DNA from: Amphiura filiformis
Taxonomy: Eukaryota > Echinodermata > Ophiuroidea > Amphilepidida > Amphiuridae
Reading direction: 5' to 3'
Assembly: GCF_039555335.1 (NCBI RefSeq)
Contig: NC_092628.1
Coordinates: 62,939,235 to 63,003,234 of the forward strand
Length of the DNA: 64,000 bases
Each line of letters begins with the position of its first letter. Position 1 is the first letter of the stretch. A program made the translations under genes and the position numbers. This document shows positions 22,399 through 61,300 of the stretch, piece after piece. A model generated the notes under the pieces. The model had not been told where the DNA came from and did not search any database. It saw nothing but the letters and a program-made list of their open reading frames with translations.

Positions 22399-22790
22399 TT
22401 ACTTCTTTGACAGGACTTCTACAAGACGTTTACGCGACAGCTCTGCAATTTTTTGTAACTCTTCAATCTTTTTCTTCAAGTGCTCATTTTCGGTCTCCAA
22501 AGCATCGGCCTGGGACTCCATACTGTCGAACTTATTTTTTTGCGAGTAAGTCGTGACCTCACGAGAAGCAACATTATTCTTATCTCTACGTCGCGCATCG
22601 CCTGTCTGGTTTTACCGGAAGTTTTTCCTGTTGATTTGCAAGCACGTTTGACTGGAGGCTCATCGTCGGTTGGCTCAGTCTCGGTGCAGAATTCACCAAC
22701 AGAGGGCGCAGCGGTAGAATCGTTAATTGTGAAATCACTTCCTGCCAATGCAGCTGAGTTATCAGCAAGATCAGAGGGACCAGTTTCCGC
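22399..22790 (-). CDS. bZIP gene, terminal coding exon (basic region and zipper)
   Basis: The acceptor TCTTTTCAG precedes 22,790 and the exon opens in phase 0 with AETGPSDLADNSAALAG. It continues through KRACKSTGKTSGK, then changes frame by one base near 22,605 into QTGDARRRDKNNVASR. A second change near 22,560 is needed to read RSRLTRK, and a third at the A7 run near 22,535 leads into NKFDSMESQADALE. Read this way, the invariant N and R of the basic region and the zipper leucines have canonical spacing. Without the last two changes one frame stays open, but with a missing invariant Arg and one extra residue. The TAA ends at 22,399; the same bases could also form a donor (AA/GTAAGC), so a further exon is not excluded. 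Confidence 0.75.
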
Positions 22791-25700
22791 CTGAAAAGAT
22801 AAAAAAGAATAGGGAAAAAATAAGTTTCATCCAGGGTGAAAAACATTTGCATATACTGCAAAGAAAACAAACAAATACATCAAATCCAAAACAAAAATAT
22901 ATACATATCAAAATTCAGATCAAAAATAAAGCACTTGAAACAGCTAGCAACAAAGAAGCGAACTACATGTACATAATAATGTAATAAATCTCAAAGAAAC
23001 TCAACAATTAAACCCCATTTTTAAACATCGCAGCATGCAAAAGGGGCATGTAACCTCACCATTGTACAAAGTTCACCATAATTTCGATTTAAAAGAGCTC
23101 TTTTCCAATGAAAACTAGAAAATGCTGAAGCAGTCCGAGGTAAACACAAAACCATAGCTAAAAATCCTCACCGAACGAATAGCTTCCTCCAATAATCGGT
23201 ATTTTGTCTATTCTGAAAACACTTTGTATATACTCAAACTTCTCATTACTTTCTAGGATGTTGCAAGGTGGTGCAATAGCACTTATTATTAAAAACATCA
23301 ATATTCATCACATGGACTGTGATTGGTTATTCCTTGCACTAAGATACCATAATAAAAGGAAATACACATCCCTTATAAGGCAAAACCAGCACTGCACATG
23401 CGTGTTCAATCATCAATAAACAGTGTATTCAGTGTACTGTGTATTTCCAGTGGTGGTGCAATCCAAAAGGTTCCCTGACCTTGGAATTCCCCGCCCACAC
23501 ACTGTGTTCAATGTGTTTCTAGATATTATCCTGACAAAAATAGTAAACCTATACCAAAGAATGTAATGGTATATTGCGCAATATTGCATTTGGTGGTGAA
23601 AGTCACTGGCATGTAGTTAATATCCCAGGGTCCTACTTTGGATTCTAATTCACCAGAGCTCTGCTAATTCACTAAAATGACATTTGTAAACTAAAATCAG
23701 TATCATTTTAAGATATTTGAAAAAAAATTCCCCTTAATCTTGTAAATAAGGAAAACATTTGAAATTAATTTATGGTCTTTTTTTTTTATACATTTTACTG
23801 TCTACTTTTATAGAAACAACAATTTGAGCTGAAAACACAGAATATATTGTATGAAGTATGCTTTGTCCCATCCAGGACTTGAACCTGGCTCTTCCCAATT
23901 GAATAGGGACGCTCTAACCACTGAGCCAATGGGGCATTTATACTCCTACAATATTTTTCTAATTTTAAAAACAAAGAAATTTCCTTAGCATTGCATCATG
24001 CATTTTAAGGGTTTCGTGTACGAGTTAATAAGTGTCACTAATGTCATGCCAACAAATTTCTCTCATCTTGCATCATGCTGTCAATGGCTAATTTTATTCA
24101 GAAATACATCCCAGGCCTGTGGCCATATTTATTGCATCAGAATTAATCCAAAAATCAAATTCTGTAGCTCGTTCACGTAGCGGTTCCGTTGTCCCACTGG
24201 CCTAACATAGATTGCCTGGCGATCGGAGTGTTATCGTCAGAGCACCTCGGACTACAAATTCTGGTGCATAAGGATTTCCATATCACATTGCACACAATTT
24301 GCTCATTATTTAAACTTCCAGGAATAATTTAAAACATTTTACATTAAATGGAATGAAAATGATTTAGCAAACTAATTTTTATGTTGAACCCTAACTTTTT
24401 AAATGAAAAAAAAACCAACAAATTACAAAATGCAAAAACTTACAGAGAAATTCTCTAGGAATCCAGTCAGGTCTGTGAATGTGTTAAAAAGTGATCCAGC
24501 GATGCATCTGTTTCAGCTGGACTCACTTCTTCGTCGCTTTTCTCCAAGTGGACCAAAGACCCCAAATCAATGGTATCAACAGCAGCAGGTTTGATGTTGT
24601 CCTCGCTGCTGGATGCCACCTCGTTGACGTCCATGAGGTCCGGGAAAAGCTCCGTCACATCCACGGTCAGAAACTGGTCCGACTCTGTCTTGAAGATGTC
24701 ATCAGCTGGCATGCAGGAAGACAGGTCGGGATCACCTGGTTTGTGAAATGACAAAAATGGACCAACATTTTATAGGATGTGACGTACGGTCTGCACGTGG
24801 TGTACAATTTAAACTTAAATGGTATGTTTTTGGTGTAACATGAGAAATGCTTAAATTTGTATGAAAGTCAGAAACTTCTTTTCAAAAACCAGAACACCAA
24901 TATATGAAAGAAACTCACCTTGGTTAAAAAGGCCACTGAGCTCCAGTGGCTCCTTCAGTCCAAGATTGGAGGCTGTCCAGACTTTCTGTACACCATCCAT
25001 TTTGGGAGGAGAGGGATTTGGATCCATCGTCGAGGAGATCAAGGAGTGTTCCAATCGGGAGGGCTCGAGGCGGCACCGGCCGCTCTCGATGCCCTCGATA
25101 AGGTTTAAAGTCATTGATGATGACAACCATTCTTCCTTCAGCTGATTCGTTACTAAGCAAGGCCATTCTGTTGAATTAGAATCGGTCGTTGCTGGGGAAT
25201 CCAGGCTAAAACAGTTAAGACCCGAGTTACGGTATAGATCCAGGGGTCTTGTAGTTACCCCTGAAATAAAAACATAACATATTTCATTAATAATATTGAA
25301 ACACTATCTTGTGAAATTTAACTGATCTGTGATCACCATGCCATGGAACAGTTACCAGTTTAGTCATGTCACTGCCACTGGCATTTGGCAAGCAATGTGA
25401 CGGGTGTGTGACATTATAAAAACTAGCCCGAAACATCATGGCCCTGTTCCTTCCTCACTAGGTACGGAGAGAGACAGTGGAAATCGTAGTGATGGAGGTG
25501 TGAGTACCTCGGGCTATATAAAAACAGACATGTGACAGATCTCAACTTTACATTTAATAATTCCAATCGATGTTCATGTTGATGAGATATTTTAATCAAA
25601 ATGTTTCTTTCTGTTTATAATATGATATTATGATTTTCGGTTCCACTTTAGCCGTTTATACACACTGCAGGTGCAGCCATAATACACAGTTCATAATAGA

Positions 25701-37284: not shown

Positions 37285-37392
37285 CTAGCTTTGCAGTTCT
37301 GATGCAGTAATGGCATTTAAGTCTTTCATCAATCCTTCTAAATTGATCATTTCTGCATTTAAATCTTCTGCGCTGAACGTCCTGGCGCTCGA
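37285..37392 (-). CDS. NEO1: NEO1 terminal exon, P3 motif and stop
   Basis: The acceptor TTTCTGTTTCAG precedes 37,392 and the exon enters in phase 0. It encodes SSARTFSAEDLNAEMINLEG and then LMKDLNAITASELQS before TAG at 37,287-37,285. In DCC the P3 helix mediates receptor self-association and binding of focal adhesion kinase and other partners; the conserved ELxKEMxxLEGLMKDLNAIT pattern is retained here with DLNAEM in place of ELTKEM. Confidence 0.95.
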   Translation of the reverse strand, partial: SSARTFSAEDLNAEMINLEGLMKDLNAITASELQS

Positions 37393-40300
37393 CTGAAACA
37401 GAAAATGATACAAAAAGTGCATTTAGAAGAACAGTCATAGATGATTTATATAAGACCAATTTCCTATACAGCCCCTACAGTGTTTACTTGCTTTGGAAAT
37501 TGGGTTTGCCAAATAAACATTTTCCCCCATATTGGCCCAATTGGGGCTAAAAATTCCTTTGACTAATAGTTATACAGAACTGCAAATTCCTGTACGTCAA
37601 AACCCATTTTCAATAAGCCAAAATTGTAACATACAGTCTCTGAGTAAAAACTGCTCCTACCTACTTTTCATTTTTACCAAGGTCAAAAATAATAGAAAAG
37701 GCTACCTTTATGCATGTTTCTGAGAAATCAAAACTATTGGTATTCCAAAATATTTTTTAAATGAGTTGAATTTTTTTTTAATGTATCAAGTAAATCAATT
37801 TAATGATTGATTTTTTGTTGTTGATATTGTGACAATTCTACACATTTTACATTGGTACCTTGAATGGGTTGTTTCATTTTAAATCCATAGACCCCCTATG
37901 GAAGACATGACCTTAATCTTCCACACAGGGAGTATAGATTTCAAATGGAGTCGCCCATTCAGGTAAACCCATTTGAATTTCACACTCCCTGTGTGGGGAT
38001 TAAGATCATGTCTTCCATAGGATTTCAACTGGAATAGCCCAATACAGAACAAACCTATAAACAGAACGACACAAGAAAAATCCTGATTTTGCTGACAAAT
38101 AATTGAATACTACTTACTGTTGGGCTAGTGCCACCCCCAGGGCCTCTCGTCACAGTCACATCTGGTGCCCTCGGTGTCACCACAGGTAGCGGTTGTCCGC
38201 GACCTCTTGGTGCTGTACCAAAACCAGCTTGAGTTTTCTTCAAAGGACTATATGTTGGTGCATTCATTTTAACTGTCACAGAGAGAAAAGTTGAAAAAAA
38301 TAATTTGTAACAATAGGTACACTGGCATGTACTAACTACACATATCCTATTATTTGTAATTTCAATATGGTTCATAAGGATAAGTAATAATATTCCTTCC
38401 TAATAAGTTTTTAAGTTTAATGTGTCTTGTGTGCCGGCTTGTGTGATAGTCTCTCATTTTGCTTCTTTTTTTTCTGTCTTATAAAAGGGGGTGGTAAATT
38501 CGATCATTTCCCTCCATAATTGTTTCGTTTAATCTTTTTTGTAATAATATATCTAATAAGTATTTGTCTGTTTGTTTGATTGTGGAAAATAAAGTTGAAA
38601 TTTTGAAGTTTAAGTTTTAAATAATACTTCAGTCTAATATTTGTTATATGAAAAGCATGAAGAATATGGGGAAAATAATCATGATCAGATAAGCCTTGGA
38701 AAGCAAAAATCTAAGCCTAGTAAAGTTGCAAACCATGAGTGCATGGCAGGCCTTGGTGTAGTACTTATGGATTAGTTCAGTCAGTGACATCAATATGTTG
38801 AGGGAGCTGTTGCATGTACATCTATGAGGCATCTATAATCGTGAATGCTCCATAAAGAGGCACCAAATGAAATTTGCACTGATGTCACTAACTACACTTA
38901 GCCAAAATCATTAGTGGTGAATTTGGCAGACTTTTAATATATTACTTGTAATTTCATTTCATTTTATTTAGATCTAAAGTATGTAACATAGCATGAGCAA
39001 AAAATGTTATGTTTAGGCATTTTTTATTTAATTTTAATTTCAAAAGAAGCCTTGGTGACTTACCTCTACCTTGATAGTGTGGTGGAGGACCTGGTACTGT
39101 AAAACTAGATAATGGATTTGTTGGGCGTGATACTGAACTCATTTGACTTGTTGAATCCTCATGTGAACTCACAGTATTGGTATCACTATGGTAACCTGAG
39201 AACAAACACAATGTAAGGTTGGGATTAACAAACAAATTATGATTCATTTCTTTTTAGATCAACAAAATTCTAACGGCAAATTCCATTGACAAATAAAGTA
39301 AACCAATAAACAGAATTTAAGAGCAGATTTTAAAATGATACAAAATATGAACAAAAACCTAATATAGCCATTTCCACAATCCATAGATTGGGGATATACC
39401 GGTTGAAATCAATACACCTTTATGTAGAAGACATGACCTTACTCTCCCACACAGGGAGTGTGAATTTCAAATGGGGTTACCTGAATGGGTGATTCCATTT
39501 AAAATCTACACTTCCTGTGTGGGAGATTAAGGTCATGTCTTCCATTTGAAATCTGCACACCCTGTGTGGGAGATTAAGGTCATGTCTTCCATAGGGGTGT
39601 ATGGATTTCAACTGGAATAGCCTATATTGTTGTATTCCACCTTAACATTAAAGAGTAACTCCTTCAGATCTTGCATTTCACAAAACGACTCTTGCCTTAT
39701 GAACATTGGTGAAAATCAAGCTACAATCCATTGGCTTTTCCTTACACAAGTTGTGAGTGGCTTGAGCTTTTGGCCCTAACAGAATCTTTATCAAATGTGA
39801 TTTTAAAGTGACAAGCCAACACACCTAACAAAAACACACATTTGATAATGATCCTGCTAGGATCAAAATCTCAGGCCACAAAATTTTTTACTACACATGC
39901 TTTTGTTACAACTTTTTAACATACACTACAAAATTCCTATTGGGGCCGCCTGCACAGGTACACCGTCACCAAGGTACTTGGTTGGTACTGTGCAGTACCA
40001 GGGGAGTATCAGTGTAGTACCAGTACCACTGCTGATGGGTCATGTGCAGTAGCAGCATTGGTACTGTGGAGGTACTCTGTGTGTACCAGTCAGGTTCCTT
40101 GGTGATGGTGTACCTTTGCAGGTGGCCACAATAGGAATCTTGTGGTGTAAGTAAGAATTTTAATGTCTATTTCCTTCCGCTAGTCAGTGACACCATTATG
40201 CAGACACATTGGACTATCCCAGTAAACCTCTATACACCCCTATGGAAGACATGCCATTAATCTTCCACACAGGGAGTGTGAATTTCAAATGGGGTTACCT

Positions 40301-43300
40301 GAAAGGGTGACTCCATTTGAAATCTACATCCTCTGTATAGGTGATTAAGGTCATGTCTTCCATAGGAGGTATATGGATTTCAACTGGAACAGCCCATTTA
40401 CATTTCCCAAAAGGACAGCATTCTAGGCTGCTCATACAAAGATTCATCAGATTGTATTCAAAATCTAGTCGAAAAGGTATAAAAGGTAACCAGAGTTTTT
40501 TGTTTGTTTTTTTGGAAAAAAAATCTGCTAAACCATTGGATGTCACTGACTTGTGGAAGGCAAATGCAATCCAATATATACCTGAAGTAGCAGTGGTTGA
40601 ACTATACATATATGGAGGTTGATTGAGATGAAGGGAGCGAGGTGAAGTAGCATAATCATATCCAGGTACACCGCCCATATGCATATCTGAATTAGTAGGC
40701 AAAGAAAAGAAGCAAAGAGATTTTGAGCTTGATTATCGCTATACTGCATTTTATATATTTGGCAATTAAAGTAGTTAGCAGTGGTCATTTAATAGAATAA
40801 TATATTGACCACTGTGAATGGACCAACACCAGATGACCTGTACAGTAATACACAGCCAAATCCCTCTTTAATATGGTATCCTGCAGTAAAGCTACTCCTG
40901 GCTTCCTCCTCAGCATAATAATTGGTACACATTACTAAATGCATGACAGTTGTACATGGGTACAACATAAGTCCATCTTGTGTACTCCATAAGTACACCA
41001 TGGGACTCTCATGCAAGTAACATATTTGCAGCTCTACTGAAGGTACCTCATTAAAGAGGGGTGTGGTTGTGTTAATCAGAATCTACATAATATCATATAC
41101 AAATATGCATAATAAAGAGATGACATGTATAATATATGTATTAAAAAGAGAAAGAAAAGGCAGTATATGCATATATATTTTGCTGAAATAAGAAGCAAGT
41201 TATCATAACTGTTATTATTAAACTTCCACCTGTTTCGTTAAAAGGAAATTCAGTGAGTTTATTACAAAAAATAGGCTATGGGATAAGCAATTACATCAAA
41301 GATATTTTTGAGAATGTAGCTGCAGTTCCTCAATTGCAATAATTGCTTGCTGTATTTACAGGGAGAAAGAATGGTTAGTGCCAATTTGGAAAGGAATAAT
41401 ATTTGGCATATTTAAGTTAGTATTGGTTAGGAATGCTATTTTATTGGTAAATCTGAAGATTTGTCCATCTCTGCACCAAATCATCCAGGTTGCTTACGTG
41501 TTCCTTGCCAACATGTGTGAGATAGGAAGGAGTCTATGGATATATATCTATGTGTACCTAAATTTGAGCTTGCTTTATCACATCTAATAGGCAAAATGTA
41601 TTCACTTTTTGTTATGCAATAAACAAGCTGCAAGGTTAAGAATTAGATTAGTGTGGTCAACATTGCATTATTTCTGTGAACTAGTTACAGTCAGGGCAAT
41701 TAGCAGAATAGTAATAATTCCAATTAATAAGTACAGATTTGTGGGTTTTTTTTTTCAAGTTAGCAATTGGCATATTTTCTTTTACGTTAGCGATCAGCGT
41801 TATTTCTTTTTTCTTCTTCAAGAAGTTAGTAAACATTTATGCATCAGCTTTGCCGACTTACAAATACCGATCAGATGACTTCAGGCTGAAAAGGAAGCGC
41901 ATATTTTTATGCTTTCAAGTGCTTTAGCGCATAATTTTAGTAGGTATTGTAGCTATTTGAGTATATAGTGAAGTGTTAATTTTCCAAGATCCCTCTGGGT
42001 AGTGATGTGCTATAATTCATCTCATGAAATGTAGTGAGTAGCTCTCCAACACCAAGGTTATAATAGCTTTATTCTCACTACCTCCAGGTGGACCCACAGA
42101 AGCCGAACGTCTCAGAGTTCCTGGCTTGTTCCTATTATCAGCCATTCTAACATCATGTTGTGATTCACTGCCATGGCGACGCCGAGCAGGTCGTCCATGA
42201 CTCTTAGCATTTGGTGGTTGCTGGTATTTCTGCAGTTTAGGGAATCCATATCTGTCTTCATCAAATGCCTCCAAATTGGAACCAACTGATCTCGGCGTTG
42301 CAGGCGTGGTCTTGAAGCTCCATTTGGTTTGGTACTTGCTGGTTTGGTAGTTTGTGCTTTCAAATTAGGCATTATGGGAAAGGCTGCACTTGCAAGATCC
42401 AGCTCTGTGGATAAGAAGGATAAACAACATTGTTACAAAACGTAATGTAAATTAATAAATTACAACTTACAAATAAAATTTCTGAGAATTGGGATAATAG
42501 TATTAAGTTGATTTCAGGAAAATTACTATGTTTTAAAGTATGTTTACCAATTTGGGTTCTCCAATCCTTGTAAGTGAATATTAATACTGATTTTTATCAA
42601 TCTTATATCGTATTTATTATTATAATAAATCTTATTGCATCCACATACCTGAGAGACTGGCAAATTGTCGTGATATCTCGTCGTCTCCTGCTGCATTGTT
42701 ATTATTGAACGAAAACTCAGCGCCCCCGCCAGCAGTGCCCAGTTGCTGATTCCCGTTGAAATTTGTGTAGCTACGTGAAGCTGAGCTATGGTGGTATGAC
42801 TCAATGTTAGCACCACCTCCTGTTGCCAGAGTTGGTGGCATGGAGTCTGTAGTCAGCAGGGAACTAGGTCCAGAATAGTGTGCTAGGAGTGGGAAAAAGC
42901 AGGGGGAAATCAACAAATACATAGCATGCAGGATTTTAGCCAAACTGTTTCAGGACTTCTTCACAACAAGAAAACTTCCTCAGAATTCTATAATATCTTT
43001 ATCTTTACAAGTAACATTTACAAATTTGAAGAAACAAGTCAATATTAGAATTTTGATATAACTCATTATTATATCTTTTCATTTTCCGATGGCTTTTCAT
43101 TAAGTATATACAACATAAGCTAATTTTTCCATTTAAACCTGTTCAGGATAGTCAAATTGTTCAAATAAAAGCTATACCTAAATAGGTGTAAGATAGCGAG
43201 GATAAATTCTTGCATTGAATAAGTCCCTTGATATTGCTTAACAAATGCTATGGGAATTTATACAGCAGTAATTAACAGAACAAAATGATTTGTTGTTCAG

Positions 43301-46300
43301 TTTACGGATTTCTAATGTATTTGTATTATCCAAATCATTTGCTCTAAGCTACAATAAATTTAAGAGGCATTATTTCATAAGCTACAAAATTTGTATATAT
43401 CTACAATACCTGATCCATTTGTTAATCCACCATTGGATATCCCACCATTGGATAATAACCCACCATTGGTAACCCCAACATCCAATCCTCTTGATCCAAT
43501 TGATGTGCCATACATGGAGCTAGAGAAGGCGTTCTCTGTGGCACCACCACTTGCACCAGCCCCTGTTTCAAACCCAAAGCTGTTGTTATGATCACTATAG
43601 GAAGCATCTGCATTCAAGCCTGTGATTCCACCTCGTGAACTAGACTCCATGGTGTTGTATTTGGTCTGTGTGCTGGAGCTACTGGTGCCCCTATCAGTAT
43701 TAGGACCAGTTCCACTGAACAGGAATTCTGAAGAGCGGAATGGATTGAAAGCACTTCCTCTATCGGTGAAGAAATCTTCACTGGCATCTGTTGCTGAGAG
43801 ATTGTAAGCGCTAGCTGCTTTCTTCTTGGCGCGTGAGACTGTGTCGTAATCAGGTGGTGCTCTTGGCCTGTGTGGTAGTAGAGGGGGTCGGATTTTTTTC
43901 GTGTCGCCAAGAGGAGGAAGGGATGATACATCAAGGCCGACGTAATCAAGCGAGTTGGAACGTCCAAGCCTCTGATGATGAGTGGACTGCTGGTCTGACA
44001 TGTTACTCTGGCCATATGCATAACTACTCGCTCCTAAACTATGAGCGGCATTTTCTTCTGAAAAAAGCGGGTTGGAAGTTAGATTAATGGAGGCCGCATT
44101 TTCCGACTGCATATAATTATTAGTTCCCATATGATATGAAGCAGAAGATGGGGACGATGATGTTGTACGACTTTCTGTTGTCAAAGAGCCGCGTCCGATA
44201 CCTGGGCGAATCAGTGTAGGGATTGGAGCTGTTATGGCTGAAATACAAAAGGAAGGGTAAAACATAAACATGCAATTAGCTGTCATGCACATGCACATGC
44301 TATGGATAAAAACATTCACACAATGAATGGTTTATATAGAAGGTAATAATTATTTTGACAAACCATGAAATTCTATTTTGGTATCCACTGATACTTGATA
44401 AAAAGTTAAATATTAAGAACTATTAACTATTCAACCTATTTTTCGCATCTTGTTTTATCCCTCACTGTCATTTCTGACCACCTAGCTTATCAGTTGGAAT
44501 GCTTTTTCTTTCTAGCAAATAACTGGGCATGTTTGTACCTGGTAATGACGTTCCTGATGTTGTAGGGAGTTCAATAGCCAATGGTCCATTCTCAAGACCA
44601 TTTTGTAGCATCATTTGCAAATTCCCATCTTTAGCTGCATCGGAAGTAGAGTAGGACTTTGCAAATGTCTCGTGGTTAGACACTGTTTTATAGCTGGTTC
44701 CATCTAGCATAGGAACAGAGCGTTCCACTTGATGTGATGTCTTTGTCTCTTCAAACGTGATGGTAAATGGTTTAGTCTCCTGGACTGCTCCTCCATAGTG
44801 ATGACCATCAGGGAAGGTCACCAACTGGTTGGAGTTCACATCATAATTAGACCTGGCGTGTCTACGATCTAGTGTCTGAATCTCTGGACCAGTACGAATC
44901 GGAACAAACCCATCCGAGTGGAGGCTGGAATAGTCACGTGTACGGTAGTCAAACTCCCTGTCGTCACGGTGATAGGTACTGCTATGGTAGTCGTTATGAT
45001 GCGAGTCCAGGCCTCGGGCTCCAGCTCCCCAGGTGTTGTAACGAGATGCGTTTGCTGCTTGCAAAGGAGAAAACTCAAGTTGTAATAATATGAACGATTA
45101 AAATTTTCTTGAACCAAATCAAACTCTGACAAAAGATGATTAAACAATGGTTTCTAATAGTTTTTGTTTCTTTACTAACATCTAAATGCAGGTCATTTAT
45201 AATGACAACATCATTAAAGCGTTACACACAAAAGCACATTGATAAGAACACTAAAATTTGTCTCATAATTTGTAAAAAAATCTATCTTACATCAGTAATG
45301 TCCTTACTAATTTAACAAATATATGAAACTAAACAAACAGAAGCATAGCACTTACATGTTAGTAATCTACACAGTGGTTATTAGTCTTTTTCCAAATGAC
45401 TTAGGTGCTTGCTTTTTATATTGTTAGCTGTGAAGTTAGACACATTAGAATATTAAAATATGATAAATGTACTTTGATTGGTTAGCAACTTTGAACCAAT
45501 GATTACTACATACTTTGATATGTTATAGACTGTGACCCAATGACTAAAGTACCCAAATATGTGCCCACCTCGTTCTACCTCGTAGTACCCCTTCACTTCC
45601 CCCAAAAGTTGATGATGATTTCCAATACAACTAGACTTGATGAGACAATGAAACTTGCCCATGAACCAACCAGTGTCAACAACTCAAGATACTAGTAATT
45701 AAGGTAGAAGGTTTATATGTGATAAGGATTGAAGAACCCAAGGAATGGTCACTCTGTGTGCACCCATTGCTGATGACTTGGTAAAGATCAAGATAGAAAG
45801 AATGTGTTTTGGGGAATATATCTTCAACAGTTGTAATACTTTTATGTATATAACTGCAGAATGTTGCAGAATCTTAATCTCAATTATGCTGCCAGTGAAA
45901 TAATTGAGCATTAAATGTATTGCACAACTTTAAAAGTCAGCAAAAATCATGATTGGGCACTGCAATAACCTTGATATCCTTAATTTGTTTAGTTTTCAAT
46001 GTCCAATACCAAATCTCTACTTATTTTGATTCATGTCCCTAATGAAATAGAATTAGGATCTTATCATTGCTTATGAGATAACATCAGGTTTATTCCACAT
46101 GATACCTTGTGATACCTTGTAATGAACCAATGATCAGTGAATTGGATTAAATAACCAGGATTTCTACCTCCCTATATTGATTACTAATGTTTATGTCAAT
46201 TTTAGGTCTAATTCTCATACCAAACTAGCATCAACATGTTCTGACCTGCATAGTTTACAACTACAGTGAAACCGGGACAATAACAAAAAAAAAGCTGCAT

Positions 46301-49300
46301 GTCTAAATATGATAGATGCAAGTTACAAGAAACTTTGCCTGCAAAGAATTGCCTCTCAGTTGAATTGCCAGATGAAAAAACATACCACCAGTTTTCAGTT
46401 TCAGTTTGCTTTTTTCTAATTTGGCCAAGTTGTTTAGCTGATTGAACTAGCATTGACCATTTAAGCATCACACAAGTGCAAACATATACTGTAACTACTG
46501 AAACAAATCATAGATAACCCATAGAGTACCAGACAGTTTCTCTTTGTTGAGCTGTAGAATGACTGTGTTTCTAGATTAAAATCAAGTTAAATTTCATTTT
46601 GATTATAAAATTTGGTTACTATACAAGGCATTCTACATTTGTTCAGACAACATTGATCTTGGACACAACACTGATATGCCTAGCACTATCTATATGCATG
46701 TATTAGTTGACTCCTGATGTGGATGGATAAATGGCTGTCATAATTCTCAAAATGGCTGCCATGTATGCCATTTCTACCTGAGTATTCATCCTGGGCATCA
46801 TAACCAGCAGGGATGCTATCATTAATGGCTTCGGAGTTGGTGTGCTGCGGGTAGATGAATGGTAGCGGGAAGAGGAATGTTTGTTGTTGCCATAGCGATC
46901 TCCAGATGTGTATACAAATGAGGCTGCAAGTCCCAAATACATCATGTTAATTCAACCAATTCTACTCATGATGCAAGACTTTTTTTTTTAAATATACAGC
47001 TGCTTGCATCACCAAGGATTGCACAATTTTATAAATATCAATTTTTGAGATGTATCTATAAGCTTAAGTTAGTAAAAGAAAAAGGAGCAAAATGTTTACC
47101 AAATCAACAGCTTTATTGTGATGAGAGAAGAAAGAAGAGTTTCATAGTTTGTAGAAGGCAAGAATAAATTTGGTGAATCAGTCTAATTTTTAGTCATTCT
47201 AAAGTGCGCCTGAAGAATTCTTATTCCAACAACAATCCTGCTTATAGAACCTATAGTTAGATTAACTTATTGCCAGAAGTTTCAAGGGAATATGTGAAAG
47301 GTGCAGCATATGTGCATGGAGGCATGATTGTGCCATACTTCTGCTCTTGGTATTATAACTAATATGTTATTATAACCCTTTGACACAACTTTACTCTTCT
47401 AATATCCTTCAACTAAAGTCTAAAAATCTTACTAAACTTAATAAAAGGTGGCAACTGAGAGCTTCAAAAACTACACTTGTAAATGCCCCTTACCAAATTG
47501 CAATGGCCAATGGCATTCTACTCATCTAGACAAGAATGCATCTACTATTTAAACTCATTACTTAGAGTTATCAACATCTACTAGGATTAATGCCCTAAAA
47601 CTTGGATTACAAACACAACTAACTTAGATTAAAGCCCAGTACCTGAGGTGCTAGTTGGGGACAGCACATCAAACGCCCCATCACCATCGGATAAACGTCG
47701 GTTACGAGTTTTGATCTTGACACTGGTTGTTCTGGGTTTCACTGCAAATTAGCAAGCATTTAACTTGGGTCAAACTACCGTATATCCTCTAATAAATGGG
47801 CGTGAAGTTTTTCAAAAAGGGGGGGGGGGGTATTTTGGAGGTCATTTTACAATGATAACTCCCACAAAATTGTTAGGTAAATTTAAAAATCACACCAAAA
47901 TGATTAACTATGGACTTAGGAACAATGACTTCCGGTTCACTTTTGGGTTTACAATGTATTTTCGCCAATACCAACGCCATTACCGATAGTGTGTGGATTG
48001 TGGTAAGCTTACTTACACAAGATAGCAAGTAAATTGTTTGTTTCAGGGGGAGTTAAGGGCGTTTATTTAATTCAATTTTTCAAAAAGACTGGAGGGGCTT
48101 TTATTTATTAGAGGATATACAGAAGGTCTACATACTACACTATGCTGCATTGAAACACACTCAAAATCACAATTACATGCATTTAACTACTAGCAGAGAC
48201 TTCTGAATAACTTTGCTTTTATTCTTGAACTACTGTCCATTTCAAGAGCCACCCAGTTCCTTCAAGGCATGTGTGTACTATGAGATGTGATTTTGAGTAT
48301 GTTTGTTATAATTTATTTAGTATATAGCTATTTAATCCTATACTATGCAAGTCTGTCTCAAAATATATTGCCCTTTCCTACTTTTCCAAATATGCGTAAC
48401 AACCGTACCTCTACAACATTTACAATCACACAAGAAGCATATTCTCCATTTGTTTCATCTTATTTATATTCTATACAATGAAACTAACTCTAAGCAACAA
48501 ATCAGAGACTCAAAAATAACGTTTCCAAGCTTTTGTTTAATCCAGAAAGCTACTTGTTTGTTATTTATAGTGAAGCTAGATTGCAATGAATTAAGCTTGG
48601 TTAGTAATATCTACATTGATCATACCTGGTGGGCCGTCCTCCTCAGCCCAGGTATCCAGGCCGGAACGAAGATGAGTTTCTATGAAAAATGTAATATATC
48701 AACATCAAACAGAGACACATGCAAAGGAATTATAAGGTTAGTATAAATATACTGTTAAGGAAAAACCTAATGCAACTTCATGCAAATAAAAATTGAAATA
48801 AAAGTCATTTTCAAATTGCTATTCTAAAATTTCATGCACTTTTGATAAAACAAATTGGTGATAAACGCTTCAAGTCAGCTTAATAAAGGCATGCATTTTA
48901 AAGAATGATTCAAGACCAAACTTCATGCAGCGACAACAATAAGAAGGATACCAAGTCAAACCATATAAAGATTTCTTCAGATTTATTTGATAATTCCATT
49001 TGGCCCTAAGCAACACAACTTAATGAACAATTCATTGAAGTGTACAATATCGATAAAAATTATGTCAAGTTAAGTTTTCATTAAAACAATATTAACTTCT
49101 GCAAATATTGGAATCTATTTTTGATACATACAAGGCAATTTGTATATAAAACTACACCATTTTAACATTGGAACACAAAATCAACATCCAACTATTTTAT
49201 CTAAAATAAACTTATAATAATATAAATTGCTTTTTAAAAAAAAGCAGATATATACATCCCAGAAACACATTGGATATACTAAGACCACCTGAAATATAAA

Positions 49301-52300
49301 AATGGTAAGGATTTTATAAATTTAACAATATTATTCCTTTGAATGTTTAGTACCTGTGTCTCTTCTGTCGTCAAACGAAGTGTAACCATTCATCCTTCCT
49401 CTGCCTTTCTTGTCTAAGAAGAAAACATGCAGCAACATTATGCAATAAGTATCATCACAAATAACACAAAGAAGCAACATACGGTTTAGCCATTGTGTCT
49501 ATGTAAGATTTTTCAAGTTTGTTAAATGTTATGTGTGATACATCATGGTATTGTGTGTTGTGGTGAAGTGTTGTTATGTTTAGGCCCACTTTTAGATTAG
49601 TTTCAAAACCCTATAATATATAATTCTAACTATTGTAAATATCATTTGAACAGTATTAGGGTATTTGCTTGGTATCTTGATATTATATGTGAAATACTGT
49701 AGTGTTAGGTACTGTAGTGTAACTTAGTAAAATTTACTTTTCATCATGATTCTGTTTTTAAATCTTATTTTCATATTCAAATTAGAGTGAGATCTATCAT
49801 GCTTAGTTAGTTGGCTACTACATGTTAAAACATTAAAGACTCACATTCTCAAGGCATGTATAATTAATTAATTGTGTGATTTTGTTGATCCCCTTAACTC
49901 GACCCGACTTGGTGCAAGATAGTTGGGAAGCTTAAAACCCGGCTTAAAACCCCACAACATGCTTTGATAAAGTAAGCTGGTACTGTGTACTACGGCCTAC
50001 ACATGGAACTAAGTTAATACGGCTATGAATCACTAACTACAAGGTCTTTACTATTTTTTATTTTCTTGCCTGATTTAGCATTTACTGTATACAAGGAAAA
50101 TGAGTTAAGTATGGATAAAAGTGCATAGGGGTATATACCTATATATGGAAGCATACATACCATATATGGAGGCATAATTCAGGGCGCCATCGCTCCAGGT
50201 CAAACCAGCCATGGAGGGTAGTGATGATGGTAGGCCTATTTTGATTGGACACAACAAACGAGGGAGTCTTGGTAACAATTTGAATTCCTATGTATTATTT
50301 TCAAGTTACATTTGCTCTATAGATTACAAATGAATTGATACTGGTGCATTGTTTTGTTCAGAACATGAATCTTCACTAACAATTTTGATGCATGATAAAA
50401 CAAATATCTGTTAAAAGTCAAAGCTATCTGTCAAAATTTAAAGTTGCAAATAATGAATACTGAAAACGGACAGCATGACAAACACATCCTCATGGTACAT
50501 TCCAAATATGGCAAATATGTGGACAGTGGAGTTCATGTGACATGTTTACAAGCACATTTGATATTCTGTATAATGTATTCAAGTGGAATTTGTTTGGTGT
50601 GCTCACAGGGAAGTACAAGAACCATATCATATGACTTATAATACTGTCCTTCACCATTTACAAGACAAAGGGTCAAGGAATCTGACCACCAGGGGAGGTG
50701 GGGGGGGGGGGGTCAGTGTGCAAATTGTTTCATATTACTCCTGTAACAAGTATTCATATAATACAAGTTCAATAGAGGGAGACATTTTGCTTTGCCAAAA
50801 CTGGAAGAACTTGTGTGTTGTGGTTCAAACCATATTATATGGGGGGTTGGGATTTGCTAGCACTCCATCCACTTCAGGACAAAGCTGATGAATGTCTTTG
50901 ATGATCCTTCTTCTTGCTTTGGTACATCTAGCTCTAATTTGCTTTAATCTGTCCCTTTTTTCACTATTTTGTTTGGCAATGCACAAATTGCTGCACACAT
51001 TCACTACTATTACTAATTTTGGCTGGTAACAAACATTACAACATAAACAAAATTGTTGCAAAACATATTAACTAGATTCAGTTTGAAACATTAACACAAC
51101 TATTTACTAAAGTTACTAACTTTACTAATGAGCAATCAGCAATAAAGGGCCTTTTTCAGAAAGCAGAACATATTTTTATTGAATGTAGCACAGTTTAATG
51201 CATGGTGAATCAATAATGCAATATCTCTTTCCCTGAATAGCTGCCAAGATGCAAATAAGATAGACCCACTGCTTTTTAGGAATTTTGGGAAAAATGCTTT
51301 TCAGGTATAGATGACAGGGGGTGCATTCAAGCTTAGTTTGGTAAATAATTTGTGAAGGGAGTTAAGTTTAGTACCTGATTCATAAGATGAACGATGAGAT
51401 ATAGTGGGGGTTTCATAAGTGTCCGATTGCATTCCAACTTTGGTGGTCGAACGATGCTCTAGGATATGAAAACAAAATTACAGTTTGGCAAAAACAAATC
51501 AAAATTTACGCAAATAGTAAAGACATGTTCTAATTTTAGAATCGTTTTACAGAAATTTCTTATATTTTTGTAAAATTTGTATATTTTATTTTATTTTAAT
51601 TTATAATATAATGACTGTTAGCTCTGTCAAAATTCCTCCAACTGGATTCAAACTTTGCAAAACATTTTGGATTTTTATACTGATTGAAAATTTCTCTGAA
51701 AGACACTATGTTACCAGTATTAATAACAAATAAAAAATACAAATTTCCTCCTGGAAACTATATATTATTACAGCATCATGTTCATTGGAGAAATCTTGGG
51801 TGTTAATATAGCAGTTTTGTTATATGGGTGTTATAAGCTTAATATCACCTGGGCTGATCGCACAAAGAACTGCAGTACATAATAAGCCCCATAAGTTTGA
51901 GATGAAATAAGCACTCAGAAGAGGTTTAGATACTTAACATTTAGTTGCAGGTCTTTGTGAGATCAGTTTTTATGATAAGAGTGCAGTAAGAATGGTGAGG
52001 TGATGTATTAAGATCCCAGACCTGCCCAACTTTGATCTATCTGTTGTTTTATAGGAAGGAGGAAGGATTGGGATGATATATAGTATTTTATGAATGGATG
52101 GATGGATGGATGAAATGATGTGTTAAAAATATCAGAGACCTAAACATCAGAATGTAATTTTATGCAAAGACTTTAAAAGTCTTACTTTTCATTTCAAATT
52201 GTTAGATAATAACAATTGTAGGAGATTGGTTATTATCAAAAGTACCAACATTTTATCAATCAAAAACGTTTTAAATGGTTGTTTCATGCAATTTAAAGTG

Positions 52301-55300
52301 GGGAAATCCATAGTTCCAACAGAATATATCTTAAACAAACAGCCTCCTTCTGCTGCACTTGTATTAATAAAAGACGCAGAAAGGGAAAAAGAGGAAATAG
52401 ATGCTAATTTAACTACTTCAAGTACTTTATCAAAGAAAATATCCCAGCCATAGTTCTAGTTCATTATAACCACAAGTCCTACAAGTTCCCTGCTTGCAAA
52501 GTCTATTTTTTCCTACATTATACATATCACTGTAACTTCAAAGCAGGTCTCTAAAATAATCTACCATCTTCAACTTCCAAAGCGGTCTCTAAAATAATCT
52601 ACATAATAGTCTACCATCATTCTCAAATCAAATATTATTCAGTGGGTGTGTATGTAGGGGTGTAATGTTGCATGTGGTTTATGTGGGGTGTATGTAGTGT
52701 GCCTTCAGTGCCTACCAATGCATGCATTTGTGCGTTATATATACATGTATGTGTGGGGTGTAGGGACGTATGTATGAAAATTTAATATTGCTGTTTATTA
52801 TGTAGCGGTAATATTTATAGCCTAATGTAATTGCAGCAAGCATTTGTGTTTTTTTTAATCTGTTGTGATGTATATCTTGCAATACATATGACACACATAA
52901 ATAAACAGCAACAGAAATATAAACATAACTTCTTCATTACAAATTAATCGATATACAAATTCAAGCAAATTGTTGCCAAATTCATTGTAGGACCTGTGGG
53001 AATAACATGTTAAGGTTGTTGAATTCAACAGGTTTAGGCAAAGAATGCAAGGTCTTGTTGTTATTTGTGGGGATTTGAGACATATTAGCATCCCAATAGG
53101 ATAAGAGAGGGTAATTTTGACTTGATTTCATCTTCATATCAAGCTGGAGGTAGAAGTTGGTCACCAGTATGCTAAAACAGATGAGTAGCTCTATATGCCA
53201 ATTCTAGAAATCTAGAAATGTTGTGGTGTTACTATGTGAATCCCATGTGCATGGATAGACCACTACTTCATAATCTCTATGTACGCCTCAACCCTGTGAA
53301 CAGAAATCATGATTAGTGCCCAGTCACCAAAAATGTATCCTGAATGAGGATAAATTAAGTTAGAGAGATGTTATTAAGAGTGTATATTTTCAAGCACAGG
53401 TGATTGATTGTTTTTGTATGGTAACCATGACGACCAGCCTCTCACCTTCACCTGATTGGTTGGCATGGTCCGATGACCCGCTGCGATTGGCTACCGTGGC
53501 ATAGAGTGGACTGCCATTGGGGATGAGGGCTGAATTAGTGGAAAAGAGCAAGCATTGTTTTCAATTGTACATGTGAATCCAGCAGGTTTTTCGTACATAA
53601 ATATCTTATTGAACAAAGTCAGTAAAATTGAAATTTATCACCTCAATTACAATGTAAACGTTAAAAACACAAAATTGATGACTTCCTCAATTTAAGACAT
53701 CAAAATATAATTATTGTTAAAGTTACTTCACACAAATTATGAAGATATAGTGTTTATTGCCATAAGACTTGTTATTGCAAACACACTTCTTATAAAAGAG
53801 TACAGTTCAGTCTTAACAGGGCATTTTGTGATCCACAGCCTTTCCCCCTTACTCCAAAAACATTGAGGTTTTTATGCTATCAGAATCCTAGATCTATTGG
53901 CATAATGTTTGTGTTCATAATATCAGATTCAGTCATTTGACCAAGGCATCTAATTTTCCTGAATGTCAACAGCCAGACTTTACAGAGTAGCTTATAGAGC
54001 ATTGTAAATTTGTAATACATGCAATTTTTATGCATAATTCGCTAATTAAATGTCTGAATCAACTGAACTTTTCTCATCTATTGAATCATAGGCCTACCCT
54101 AAAAAGAAGGTTCTACTAGAATCACGAAATGCCCTTAAATGATTAGTACACACTTTGGTTTCCCATGTGTAAGTCAAAGTTGGTAAAATCGGAATCCTTA
54201 TAGGGTTGGGCAATATTCAATAGTCCACACTTAATACATGTAGCTTTCTGTCAAAATTGATTGACAACCACATTGATATTGCCCAACCCTAACAATATGT
54301 AACTGTTGAGTAGAATAGAGAAGTGAAATACATGAAGATAGGAATGAATATGAAATTCAATTACAAATAAAATGTCGTAACTCAATTAATAACATGACAA
54401 AGTATTCAAAGGTATAAACAATTACATATTCATTTGTAATTATTACAATATCTTTTGATCATCTGGAACCATTTTGAATGTCGTACTACACAGCATTCTG
54501 TCAACTTTTTCTAGTTTCTAGGAACACCTACCTTGGTTATGTCTTTTACCGGTTCCAAATTCTGTTTCATGCATCCCACCTGTACAGAAAAATGGATATG
54601 GTCAAAAAATGGGACCCTTCACCAAGGCACTTTGTTGTGCATAAATATCTATGCTATATGAAAATTGCCAGATGTATAGAAAAAGGTGGAAATGCAAAAA
54701 AGAAAACAAATTTCTATGTGTCTACTTAAATTATGTAATATGTAATTTTTTTATTTGCAGAAATGATGTAATAAAATGCTTTACAACTACTGAACTCTTT
54801 TCAAAATGCAGAGCTACCAACATTCAAAAATACATTTCAGTATTATAAAGACTTCGTAAAACCAGTATTTATCCTAAACTCTGTATTTTCCATAAAAATC
54901 AGCATTTTCAAACTTCCATATACAAAAAGTATAAACAGTATTCTTTGGCATTTTTATGATTTTTTCAGTATTTTGAGTTATATCAGTAGAAATACTGAAA
55001 ATTGGTTCTAGTTGGCAGCTCTTAAAATGTATACACCCGTCATTGGCGCCACCTGGACAACATTCATGCACATCTGTAGATAACCAGGTGAAGTTAGAAG
55101 AACTTCAGTATTATGGTATACCCTATAACCTCTATGCACAATCAAAACATGCAAGTGGTACTTGAGTTGTTCTTACAGTGGGTCGGACAGAGTATAAATG
55201 CAACATCAGCTTACCTCTATGTTGATCCACACCGCCCCCAGGGTTGAGTGGTTCCAATTCAGTAGCTAATGGTGATTTTGTCATGTCCCGATCAGACGAC

Positions 55301-58300
55301 TGTCCACCTTTAGCCCATAATAAGTCGGGTGCGTCTAATTCATTACCTATTTTACCATTGGCATTTACTTTTCCTTTCCTAAAACACACAGAAAAAGTCA
55401 TAACAAATTATTTGCTAAGTAAACATATACACAGTTGTGATGTTGTGATGATGCAATACTCTTTATCACTAATCAGTTAAGTTACTTACTGTCTTTTACC
55501 ACCAAGGCATTGTGCCAATATGGAGTCCAACCCCATAGCATACCTCTCTCTTTTCATTTCTGATCTTTGAATGAATTGCATCTGGATTTGTACATTGCAC
55601 TAGACACTATTGAGGTATGTGTGAGTGGGTGTTTACAAACAAACATAAAATAAACAACTTTCTTTTTCATGGCTTGTTTGACTTCCAGGATTGGAATTTC
55701 ATTTTATTTTATATTTCAAATAAAACTTCCAAACCACTGATTTGACCTGGAAATTCAGAGACAACAGTCTTGACCATTGTATTTTAATGCTCTCTTGAAC
55801 GGGCATTACCAGTGATTAACTGAACCAGAAAACCCTAATATTCATGAAAATTAAGATCTTTGTGAATTGACAAATGGCAAACTTGTAAATGTTCTGATAA
55901 AGACAAAATCTGACATCAAAATGAAGGTAGAATAATAGTACTCCCATACTTTTATTACTTTTCAGGTTATGCGATCAGTAGTAAGGCTGCTGAATTCAGA
56001 AACCAAGGTAAGGCAAAAAAATACTATACTATATTATTGTCTGGTGGAGAAGTTAGATATATTTTGTACAAAGAAATATCTGATAATCCCTTCAAACTGA
56101 TCTTTAGCGCCATGTCCATTTTAAGGACTAAGACTAACTGCCAAGGTATTTTGGTAAAACAGTCAAGATGTTTGAGGTGTTTAAACATGGCTCAACTTCA
56201 TGAAAACAAGTTACAAATTCTTCCTCCTTTCTTGTTGTTCTTAGCTACTATTGATAAGATTGAGTGGTTCTGATTCATATAATCAAAATACTTACGGTTG
56301 AAATTTCCTCTTCTCTTTATACTGTTGTCCAAAACACACACAACATGTGGCTCCACAGCACAATGAAGCACAACACTTGGCACACTCTTCTTCATCGGAA
56401 CAGCAACAAGGACACATTGATGTCCAACACCTCGCCAGAGCACCACAGCATGGACCAAATGGACCACAACAGTCTGAGTCTGGACAACATGAGGCACAGC
56501 ATGCACAGCAACCACATACCAAGCAGAGGACAATAAGAATGGCTAGTAGAAGCAGTAGGAAGATGGTAGCCACGATGACCAGCCATAGCCACCATGGGAA
56601 GGCTGCTGCTCCTGTTATAGGGTCTGGTGGTATTGCTGTCACTGTGGAAATAAAATTACAGCAGTTCCTTGATATAGTTATATACTTTTGTTGCTTAAAC
56701 ATTTTTCATACTTGACAGACATGACAACAGGCTTCTTGTGACAAAATGCAGCATGTAACAAAGTCAACAACCTGTTTACTTGTTTTTTTTCTTCACATGG
56801 CATTTTTATATGGAAAAATGCAATTAAAACCATTGGGCAACACTTACAAATATATTTGCTTAAAATTTAAGATGGAACCCTAATACATGTACATCATTCT
56901 AGACATTGGATGGCAATATTCTCAATTAAAGATTTTGTTCTCCAATTTTTCAAGAATCCCTTTGACTGTTGCATTAAAATAACACTATCCATGCTTAATA
57001 GGCAACATTTTATATCCAAAACAAAAACTAGATTAAAATTTATACTTTATCTGGTTTGTAACAGTAAGTAACTCCATTGCAGTAAACATCAAAATTTTTA
57101 AAGGCATAAAACAATGGATGTGACATCCAGTCATTTGTTTTTAATTTATTGTAAATTGTGTAGCACCTTTCTGTTTGACTTTAGAGCAAATATAGAGTAA
57201 TATATTCATTCATTCTTCATAACAAGTGTGTCATACTTCAATTCACAGTCATTCTTATTGACAAATTGACAAAATTTGACAAAAAAACACAATTTTATTA
57301 CTCATTTTAAGTTTACAGTACTTGGAACCAAAACTGACAGAGCAATTTTATATAAACACCCGATACTAACATAAAAACTCAAAATAACGTCTCCTTGAGC
57401 AAAACCATAAAGTGCACTTATGGTTCAAATTTCACGGCAGGTGTTTTTGAATTATCTGCCAGTGGAGAAGGTTCATATCTGCACAGCTCTGACAACAACC
57501 CTTTAGATTGACTCGATAGAAACTTGAGACACAAAACAATGATTGATGACAAATATGAAGAATGCAACACAAACATATTCATGCAAAACATATTCATGCA
57601 AATACCTACAAGATAGGAGATCGTAGGACATCTCAATAATTGAAGGTTCAAGAACTATTTGGTATTGAGTCACAGAAAACAAATATACAGAATGAAAATT
57701 TGGCACACTTTAAAATTTGTGTTTTTATTGAAAAAAGGAGAAGACAATTTATGTGGATTATTGAGATGTCCTATACCATTTTTCACCCTGATGTGACGCC
57801 AAGGCGTTGAGGCAGCTGTTTCGGGCACGCATCTATGCAGCATCTTTAATCGCCTGCGTGTGTACGCCAGCACTTTGAGCGAACACAAGCTATTTGTAGC
57901 TGCGCCCAATGATATGTGCACCGACGTCACTGCCACATCAGAGTGGAAAATGGTATATAAAACTAAAGAACAATGAGTAAACATGCAAATGGGACAGCGT
58001 TGCTGAAGGGCGAGATAATGTAACACCAGGGGTTCTCAATTGACAGCCCGTAGGCCAGATGCGGCCTGCCGACCAATTGTGGTTGGCCCTTGAACAGCTC
58101 TGAAATATACAGTAAACATAACAAAGCAAGGTGTATTTGGACCTCAAACACAATTCTTTGAAATGATTTTGGCCCTCTATGGCCCGTGAGCAAACGTAAT
58201 TGAGAACCCACGGTGTAACAGAAATAAAAACATGCCTTACCTAGAATTGGAGGACCTTGAAAATAGGAATGAGATTCAAGGTTTGTTTGTTTATGATGTA

Positions 58301-61300
58301 GGATGACCAGGATGGTGGAAGTAGTGCAGGCAGGCACACAAAACACAACAATCACAGGTAAAGATGAAATATAATGTGTCAGAAATCAAAACAAAATCAA
58401 AATGATAAAAGAAAATAGAGCAAAAAGAAAACTGCAACTGAGTGAGAATTAAGCTATTGCTTGCACACAACATTCAATGGGTTCTGTAATCAGAAATATA
58501 TTTTTATGTAACTTCGCCAAATGACAATCTATCTCCACGCATTTAATCACCAATATTTATAAACAACAACCACAATTTTCGACACTTGTGACAGAGACAC
58601 GTTATTACCAAAAGTAGCGCTTTTAAGTTATTTGTTTCTTGTGTGCAAGCAATTTTCTCTTCAAAATTTATAGCTTCTATTTACAATGCCAGAAGGGACC
58701 ACTCAATATGTCATCATCTTGTAATTATGTGGCATACAGAGCATCAAGCAATATTCTAAATAGACACTATAAATATAAGTACGCAATAAAGATAAATAAT
58801 ACTAAAACTGCAAACTCACAGCAAATGAAAAAGAGTTTAATAAGTGCAACATCAATATAAGTGCATTTTTTTAATATAAGTGGTTTCTAGTTTCTAAAAA
58901 CTTCATAAGAGGATACGTAATAATAGGATAACTAATAATTATATAGGTCTATCTGAGATGGATTGTATATCCATACGGAGCAGGTATTTTATGAAGCTAT
59001 AATCCTTTTATTTGACATGATCATATTAAAGATATTTTTAAATATGAAACATTTATATTATAAGCTATATAACATTAAAATGTTATATAGATTTATGAAA
59101 ATGTTTCGTAGAGAAAAGATATAGGCTACACAATCCTTTTTCTCTAAATTGTGAATATGATGATACATAATAAAAGAGTGTTAAAATAGTTTGGATCATA
59201 AATAAACACGCCGGTACGGATGAGGCAAAAAAGGAAGTCATCACTGAATTAACAATTATCAAAAATATTTTTCAACAATAACAGAATTTATCAAATAAAG
59301 TGTGGTTTATTGGACTACACTAAATATTTAAGAGGTAGGAAACGTTGGCATTTAGAATCCAAAAATATTGCATCGGATTGAATGATGTGAGCAAAGCAAA
59401 CCGGAAATTAATATCAACTAATAAAAACATAACATAAAACACACACAAGATGTTGGGGAAAGACAACGTCATTAACACAGCACAATATTTTGTTTGATGT
59501 GTTACTTATTCTCAATCCATTCTAAATGTAGCGTAATTACTCAACATATCAAAAACAGATGTAACTAATTGGATTTGGAGGGGTAATTTGATTTCTAATT
59601 ACGTTTGGCTCAGGTAATAAGCAACTGTTATACAAAGGTAATATGTGGCAAGTAATCAACAGATTATATCAACAATTTTGTGAACAACATCGGAATTCAA
59701 TTTGTGTGCAGGGTTTTCCCCTATTCCTTTATTTTGAACACTACTCGATACCTGATACAATGTATATTCAATCTCTAGATCAGAAATCTATCACTCTTTT
59801 AAAACAGCGAACAGGTTTAAATTTCAATGCTAGTGTGAAGAAATTCAATTATCAGGGATATCAAATAGTGCTGAGCAAATTGATTTCATGCAGGAGAAAC
59901 AAAAATGTAACATTCAACATGGAAAACAAGAGACAAGATTTAACAGGTACAACTCCCGATTCCAGAAAAATACAGCACTAATGTTTTTGGATAAAAAAAA
60001 TTATTATCCTGTTTTGCCAAATAAAACATAGCTCAATCTTAATCCTTTAGATAGAACTAACTGCCAGGTATTTTTTTAATCCCAAAATTTTAGTGCTGTA
60101 TTTGTCTGGAATCTAAGACGGGTTGGCCTTTGTAGCACTTGACCATACTAAAGGAACAAACCAAAAGATTAGTGAAGCCCTGTGAACTAATTTAGTTAGG
60201 GAGATGTTTATTATATCACTAAAGTTTCTTGCATACTCTCTACTTTGGGTTTTGTTACAGACTGGTAGGGAGGTAGTGAGTAGTGCCGTAACACCTGTAA
60301 CAAAACTAGTTATGATAGGGCTTCACCAATCACTTGGTTTGTGATCTATATGAGCACATGTTTTGTCAAAGATATATTTTAAAAAATTGTTTGCTGCAAC
60401 TTTATTCTCTTCAAAAAATTCTCAAACTTAATCAAAAGCATCAATGGTGCTAAAGCTTAAAATGTAGGCCATATTATATTAAACTTTGTGCTACAAGTCC
60501 ACTAAGGTTGTAACATGACAGAAAAGTGAATAGATATTTCATAAACATGATACAGGCATTCACAATATGAATTACATTGGACTAGAGAAAACAACACAAA
60601 ACAATATTTAAGCACAAAAACATTAGATTCACTTCAAAACATAACATTTATTGTTTTTGCTTCAAATGTTTTTCAAATGTCTCGCTGCTTGTAACCTATT
60701 TCTCTTACCTGGTGGGGTAGTATCTGACACAATACCAGAGATAGGACTGTCTCCTTTTACATTGTGACCCTGTATTCTAAAGTGATACATTGTGTCTTGT
60801 GTAAGAGATGGTATAATTGTAGTAAGGTCTTCTCCTTCTAAGTCAATTTCTATCCATTCTTCTATTGGTAGTGTCGCATCCGTTGAATAATATATTGTGT
60901 AACCTGCAAAAATGTTTTTTTTTTAAATGCAAAATCAGTGAATAAACCAAAGTTGGATAAAAACATAGTTTGACTACATTATAACCATTATAAGAATAAA
61001 AATGCAATTAAAATAAGGCTTATAGAAAAAATGTAGAGATAAGTGTCAACATTTCATGATTATGTTAAATTAATCACAAGGTTCTCTAATTGAATAGTTA
61101 GGAAGATGCAATTAAATTCATGATTTCTATCTTTTAAAATGTGTCAACATTGATACAAATACTAACTCTATAATATCTGCAAAAGTATGTAATTATAAAT
61201 TATATATCACCCTATTGGGCTATAATTGAACAAAATGAATTGGATTTTGAGAAAACTGATTAATTTTGAGACATTACCAGTATCCAGTTTCTACTGCTAA

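Follow-up and report, generated by a model that had tools for sequence, protein, structure and literature searches.

A neogenin/DCC-type gene and the core of its cytoplasmic tail

We analyzed a minus-strand gene in a 64-kilobase (kb) window of the genome of the ophiuroid Amphiura filiformis (contig NC_092628.1, positions 62,939,235 to 63,003,234; all coordinates below are counted within this window). By its sequence, this gene is a member of the neogenin/DCC family of guidance receptors, and the window contains its 3′ half. In a search of solved structures the FN3 domains 5 and 6 matched neogenin (7ndg) with an E value of 2.7e-46. DCC is also among the best solved relatives, and the seven highest matches listed were all neogenin or DCC. 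The FN3 exons also match the Pfam family fn3 (5.7e-23). Receptors of this family have an ectodomain of four Ig and six FN3 domains; FN3 5-6 are the only ones of these inside the window, and the gene continues past its edge at 64000. A pattern search of prokaryote genomes with the FN3 6 exon gave one relative among 78 pattern matches, a bacterial FN3 domain that is useless as an orthologue. The conserved part of the gene comprises the following exons (lengths in nucleotides, nt).

60709–63873, minus strand: FN3 domains 5-6, exons 63867 (or 63873)–63705, 63355–63210, 61713–61606 and 60903–60709
56296–56641, minus strand: transmembrane exon, 346 nt, phase 1 to 2, with the membrane helix and the cytoplasmic juxtamembrane segment
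55215–55378, minus strand: P1-like exon, 164 nt, phase 2 to 1
39064–39195, minus strand: 132-nt exon, phase 1-1, which opens the Neogenin_C block
38118–38272, minus strand: 155-nt exon, phase 1 to 0, Neogenin_C block
37285–37392, minus strand: final exon, with P3 and the stop codon

The last three coding exons match positions 173–294 of the 294 positions of the Pfam profile Neogenin_C (E 8.4e-20), and the final helix matches the DCC P3 peptides 3au4, 3pzd and 6bz3. In DCC, P3 contacts FAK through the six hydrophobic residues L1423, M1427, L1430, L1433, M1434 and L1437 (PMC5818605; this and all other papers are cited from excerpts). Our alignment shows that all six are identical in this gene. 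The residue directly before P3 is Phe here and Tyr in DCC; the replaced Tyr is probably the Src/Fyn site, which is numbered Y1418 in PMC6080411 and Y1420 in PMC5818605. The matches of FN3 5-6, Neogenin_C and P3 thus bear out the family assignment made in an earlier, sequence-only reading of this DNA. The 164-nt exon reads APDLLW and resembles P1 as generally described; it has no match in Pfam. We take the 132-nt exon to represent the P2 region.

FN3 6 and the membrane helix lie only about 16 residues apart (60709–56641, minus strand), and the string FPWWLW forms the aromatic entry into this helix. Of the 73 residues of the cytoplasmic juxtamembrane segment (56296–56520, minus strand), 24 are Cys, a composition similar to that of other Cys-rich membrane anchors. 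Weak matches of the membrane exon to coronavirus spike anchors in the PDB (best E 0.0012) were dismissed as shared hydrophobic and Cys composition, not kinship. The transmembrane domain of DCC is reported to be palmitoylated (PMC6080411), and by analogy heavy acylation of the Cys-packed segment would be a reasonable expectation.

Thirteen candidate exons between P1 and the P2-P3 block

Our gene model has 18 exons from the transmembrane exon through the P3 exon. Thirteen of these are candidate exons (cassettes) between the P1-like exon and the 132-nt exon. With all exons the cytoplasmic tail comes to about 1,145 residues, or to 1,127 or 1,165 residues with in-phase alternative donors. When P1 is joined straight to the 132-nt exon, the frame stays open to the stop codon and the tail measures 259 residues. 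Eleven of the 13 cassettes have lengths divisible by three and are flanked by phase-1 introns at either end; the exceptions are the exons of 146 and 323 nt. The insertion of the long exons into the core of this gene can be read directly from the DNA, as can the exon phases and the in-frame short tail that full skipping would leave. The cassettes are listed here, with held-out coding scores (in bits) for the eight small unbroken ones.

54532–54579, minus strand: 48 nt, phase 1-1; 17.6
53446–53529, minus strand: 84 nt (84a), phase 1-1, with PLYATV; 22.5
51375–51458, minus strand: 84 nt (84b), phase 1-1, with DTYETP; 7.6, weak support
50161–50235, minus strand: 75 nt, phase 1-1, with NYASIY; 11.2, poor acceptor (-1.6)
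49354–49413, minus strand: 60 nt, phase 1-1; 8.9, weak support
48626–48679, minus strand: 54 nt, phase 1-1; 18.9
47643–47741, minus strand: 99 nt, phase 1-1; 8.9, weak support
46778–46923, minus strand: 146 nt as sequenced, frame switch inside, both ends phase 1
44539–45054, minus strand: 516 nt, phase 1-1; alternative donor 44479 gives 576 nt
43410–44237, minus strand: 828 nt, phase 1-1; in-phase alternative donors give 792, 774 nt and other lengths
42649–42882, minus strand: 234 nt, phase 1-1
42082–42404, minus strand: 323 nt as sequenced, frame switch inside, both ends phase 1
40582–40686, minus strand: 105 nt, phase 1-1; 22.2

The proposal made from the letters alone was of an unusually long tail whose ends are conserved and whose exons include a phase 1-1 series, and Neogenin_C, P3 and the exon phases agree with this outline. 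Several details change. The count of about 18 exons holds, and the estimated tail of about 1,170 residues becomes one of about 1,145. The claim that all 13 cassettes are phase 1-1 multiples of three applies to 11, because the two exons counted as 147 and 324 nt after correction are 146 and 323 nt in the sequence as it stands and carry an apparent frame switch. The series ends at 40582 and not at 39064, since the 132-nt exon belongs to the conserved Neogenin_C block. The exon given as 519 nt is one of 516 or 576 nt, and the length of 828 nt stands as one of several that in-phase donors allow. In the core-only tail the Neogenin_C match begins at position 165 of the profile; in a tail that includes 11 of the 13 cassettes it begins at position 150, which lies 12 residues upstream of the 132-nt exon. 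Hence, it does not extend into the insert.

To score the cassettes as coding sequence, we held out the eight small unbroken ones and derived codon statistics from 871 codons in 10 further exons of the gene. The scores include splice sites, judged by generic matrices typed from general knowledge and not trained on the species. Seven of the eight held-out cassettes reached at least 8 bits, and the eighth (84b) reached 7.6. Six control stretches (61.5 kb) contained four candidates of at least 6 bits, two of at least 8, one of at least 10 and none of at least 12. Individually, 84b, 60 and 99 are weak as exons. The long cassettes of 516, 828 and 234 nt are coding beyond doubt, with leave-one-out coding scores of 70, 118 and 43.5 bits. 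Phase 1 is the best of the three frames in all 11 unbroken cassettes, and their G+C content is 48% versus 32.5% in the 11.7 kb of introns between them. After training on the seven conserved exons only (348 codons), nine of the unbroken cassettes still scored positive, and candidates of at least 8 bits numbered nine in the tail region and two in the controls. The best phase 1-1 candidate of at least 45 nt in the intron between FN3 6 and the transmembrane exon scored -5.6 bits. Coding-like windows at 40135–40061 and 47346–47272 were set aside as lacking a convincing pair of splice sites.

This search began with phase 1-1 exons, and the choice of small exons is therefore biased to that phase. As a check on this bias we used a phase-free decoder with exon penalties of -4, -6, -8 and -10. 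It recovered exactly 11, 9, 7 and 7 of the 11 unbroken cassettes, respectively, where 576 nt counts as the 516-nt exon and the 516-, 828- and 234-nt exons were part of the codon training. Some of the small additional exons that it called bridge the two frame-broken cassettes. The decoder exons 40464–40299, 40686–40299 and 39561–39481 were rejected as overlapping copies of a dispersed repeat (40245–40363 and 39427–39545), and its exon 40113–39970 falls outside this repeat. Copies of this family of about 120 nt lie in both orientations at 37901–38019, 39427–39545, 40245–40363 and 62016–62134.

The frame changes in the two broken exons were located by codon statistics at 46840–46823 (146 nt) and 42306–42280 (323 nt). 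Both exons follow the phase-1 frame on the 5′ side and a frame that ends in phase 1 on the 3′ side. When one switch is permitted, the score rises by 10.9 and 27.7 bits, respectively, with both switches in the same direction, and by at most 3.8 bits in 12 other exons (the 132-nt exon plus the 11 unbroken cassettes). This pattern fits an insertion or deletion in the assembly or in one allele. Generally poor sequence quality is not obvious, as a 1,068-codon open stretch is intact at 8894–12097. If the switches are real, inclusion of either exon costs the protein its P3, which would be tolerable mainly in exons that are often skipped.

A G at donor position +5 is present in all eight comparison exons (four FN3 exons, transmembrane, P1, 132 and 155) versus five of the 13 cassettes (Fisher p 0.007, or 0.018 with the 774-nt donor for the 828-nt exon). 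Cassette donors score lower than those of the comparison exons (one-sided p 0.008), and acceptors show no difference between the two sets (p 0.92). Donors without a +5 G would agree with optional splicing, although they prove nothing. All 14 donors of P1 and the cassettes follow an exon-final G; therefore, every phase-1 junction codon starts with G and cannot be a stop codon. Phase 1 is also found in the introns that follow FN3 exons two, three and four. ACTAA-type splicing motifs occur within 60 nt downstream of the donor in three of the 13 cassettes and in none of the eight comparison exons, too few to argue from.

The cassettes encode 14.7% Ser, 9.7% Gly, 9.0% Thr, 6.2% Pro and 4.5% Tyr. 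Proline makes up 14% and 17.6% of the 132- and 155-nt exons, which resembles the "as much as 15%" given for the DCC tail (PMC5818605); the cassettes lie below this level. A charge-hydropathy index places nine of the 13 cassettes on the disorder side (below 0) and three at 0.01–0.06, and the 75-nt exon scores +0.30. In the 828-nt exon the patterns PxxPx[RK], PPxY and NPF cluster within about 50 residues. The product of this exon had no match in the PDB (E up to 0.1) or in phage records, and two stretches in viral contigs that fit its pattern are not relatives. Searched singly against Pfam, the 516-, 828- and 234-nt exons and part of the 323-nt exon gave nothing near a cut-off. Duplication among the nine cassettes of at most 160 nt is unconvincing, with a best pair score of 14 compared to a maximum of 12 in 20 shuffles.

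Proposed optional spacers, or possibly a constitutive tail

We favor, with a probability of about 0.55, the reading that this neogenin/DCC gene has a tail core of normal size and a 13-exon phase 1-1 insert, many cassettes of which are optional disordered spacers. The core consists of the membrane-proximal segment, the P1-like exon and the P2-P3 block. The insert between P1 and this block would add about 886 residues, mostly rich in Ser, Gly, Thr and Asn and probably disordered. Many cassettes may be optional, aided by 5′ splice sites without a +5 G, so that cells could set the length and content of the tail and keep P1 and P3. The weakest step concerns function: the inserts would most likely serve as disordered spacers, perhaps with phosphorylation and docking sites as well, and would change the reach from the membrane, where the Cys cluster may be acylated, to the P3 helix, the element that in DCC recruits FAK, myosin X and ERM proteins. 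A bolder version strikes us as distinctly unlikely. It holds that the tail and not the ectodomain is spliced combinatorially, with as many as 13 spacer exons that are optional and in frame (2^13 combinations in theory), lengths from 259 to about 1,145 residues, constant P1 and P3, and a tunable distance from a lipid-anchored juxtamembrane pad to the FAK- and myosin-X-binding helix.

Several observations weigh against optional spacers. Falsely called exons would likewise have weak donors, the seven strongly supported cassettes split into four with and three without a +5 G, and the comparison exons are constant by assumption. The phase-1 majority among the FN3 exons suggests that phase uniformity may be a habit of the gene. 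Training on conserved exons only turns 84b (-3.5) and 99 (-5.1) negative, and two cassettes are frame-broken as sequenced. At all four penalties the decoder adds or extends exons between 40686 and 39481 and moves the acceptor of the 132-nt exon to 39185. It also calls an extra 21-nt exon at 55073–55053 at -4 to -8, and further extras at 51869–51849, 45635–45569, 42566–42548 and 42167–42079 at -4 and -6. Finally, none of 12 ligand or motif patterns in the cassettes exceeds its frequency in shuffled sequence (all p at least 0.10); a thirteenth feature, the number of tyrosines, cannot change in the shuffle and carries no information. The strings PLYATV, DTYETP and NYASIY, on which the sequence-only reading had built a scaffold of proline-rich and tyrosine ligands, are present, and no function can be claimed for them. 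With patterns at the shuffle level and low proline, such a signalling scaffold is not supported.

The strong coding signal of the long cassettes would equally suit a constitutive giant tail, in which the 13 exons are always or nearly always included and no combinatorial choice exists. Uniform phase would then be a by-product of intron entry at AG/G sites in disordered sequence, and the phase-1 introns that follow the last three of the four FN3 exons agree with this notion. We consider it somewhat unlikely, given that the cassette donors are weaker than those of the comparison exons and that the two frame switches, if real, would strip P3 from every protein. Rather doubtful is the idea that the series is partly unreal, so that the 516-, 828-, 234- and 105-nt exons and perhaps 48, 84a and 54 are genuine, some of 84b, 60, 99 and 75 are chance open stretches, and 146 and 323 are decaying or mis-sequenced. 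The scores of 84b, 60 and 99 (7.6–8.9) fall in the range that the controls reach twice at 8 and four times at 6 bits, and the acceptor of the 75-nt exon and the two frame switches point the same way. However, phase 1 is best in every unbroken cassette, and the control density predicts about one match of at least 6 bits per 16.2-kb tail region, not four. In a third alternative the cassettes are part of a distinct, nested gene or use an internal promoter, and the receptor joins P1 directly to the P2-P3 block; this junction keeps the frame and would leave a tail close to the normal length. Such an arrangement is very improbable, because the cassettes match the flanking receptor exons in strand and phase, that frame is free of stop codons in all 11 unbroken ones, and the Pfam and PDB searches gave no strong match to another gene family.

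Window context and known receptors

Outside the receptor gene, the stretch at 8894–12097 (plus strand) encodes an NAD(P) transhydrogenase (1,064 codons from the first ATG; PNTB with E 4.8e-175 and three further PNT domains) and is apparently an intronless gene or an intact retrocopy. A bZIP-like segment lies at 22402–22826 (minus strand). Its frame 22611–22402 matches Pfam HALZ (2.4e-5) and bZIP_2 (7.4e-4) weakly, both under the cut-offs; the overlapping open frame 22826–22479 has no Pfam match, and by eye the basic region looks divided between two frames. A tRNA gene or tRNA-like element is located at 23864–23935 (minus strand; Rfam 54.2 bits).

Among the matches listed from the open-access literature (titles and abstract openings; genome annotations lie outside this scope), we found no description of a tail such as this one. 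According to the excerpt of a 2020 sea-urchin paper, sea urchin DCC had not been the subject of any reported functional study (PMC7555569).

Drosophila Dscam1, with its cytoplasmic exons 19 and 23, and shrimp Dscam, with its variable tails, have skippable tail exons (PMC5465998, as excerpted). In Drosophila Dscam1 only two tail exons can be skipped, and most of the diversity arises from clusters of mutually exclusive exons; the nine cassettes compared here give no clear sign of such clusters. Kirrel3 uses its exons independently, and some of them add residues just inside the membrane (PMC10698715, as excerpted). In the mouse there are four such exons, and long reads establish their isoforms, in contrast to the hypothetical isoforms of the cassettes described here. 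The likeness to Dscam1 and Kirrel3 is limited to potentially skippable cytoplasmic exons.

With vertebrate neogenin/DCC, Drosophila Frazzled and C. elegans UNC-40, the gene shares FN3 5-6, a single transmembrane helix, a putative P1-like segment, a P2-P3 block and the FAK-contact residues of P3. It differs from neogenin/DCC in its low-proline inserts, its Cys-packed juxtamembrane segment and the Phe for Tyr before P3. The DCC tail is described as disordered, with three short motifs in about 350 residues (PMC5818605), and the tail with all exons would be about three times as long. DCC-family tails carry the signalling, and some 900 residues inserted at one point with both ends kept would be a natural experiment on tail length and spacing in netrin and RGM signalling. 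The splice choice described for DCC in the excerpt of PMC5563286 concerns the FN4-FN5 linker and is extracellular, whereas the candidate choice here concerns the cytoplasmic tail; if true, diversity sits on the inside of this guidance receptor.

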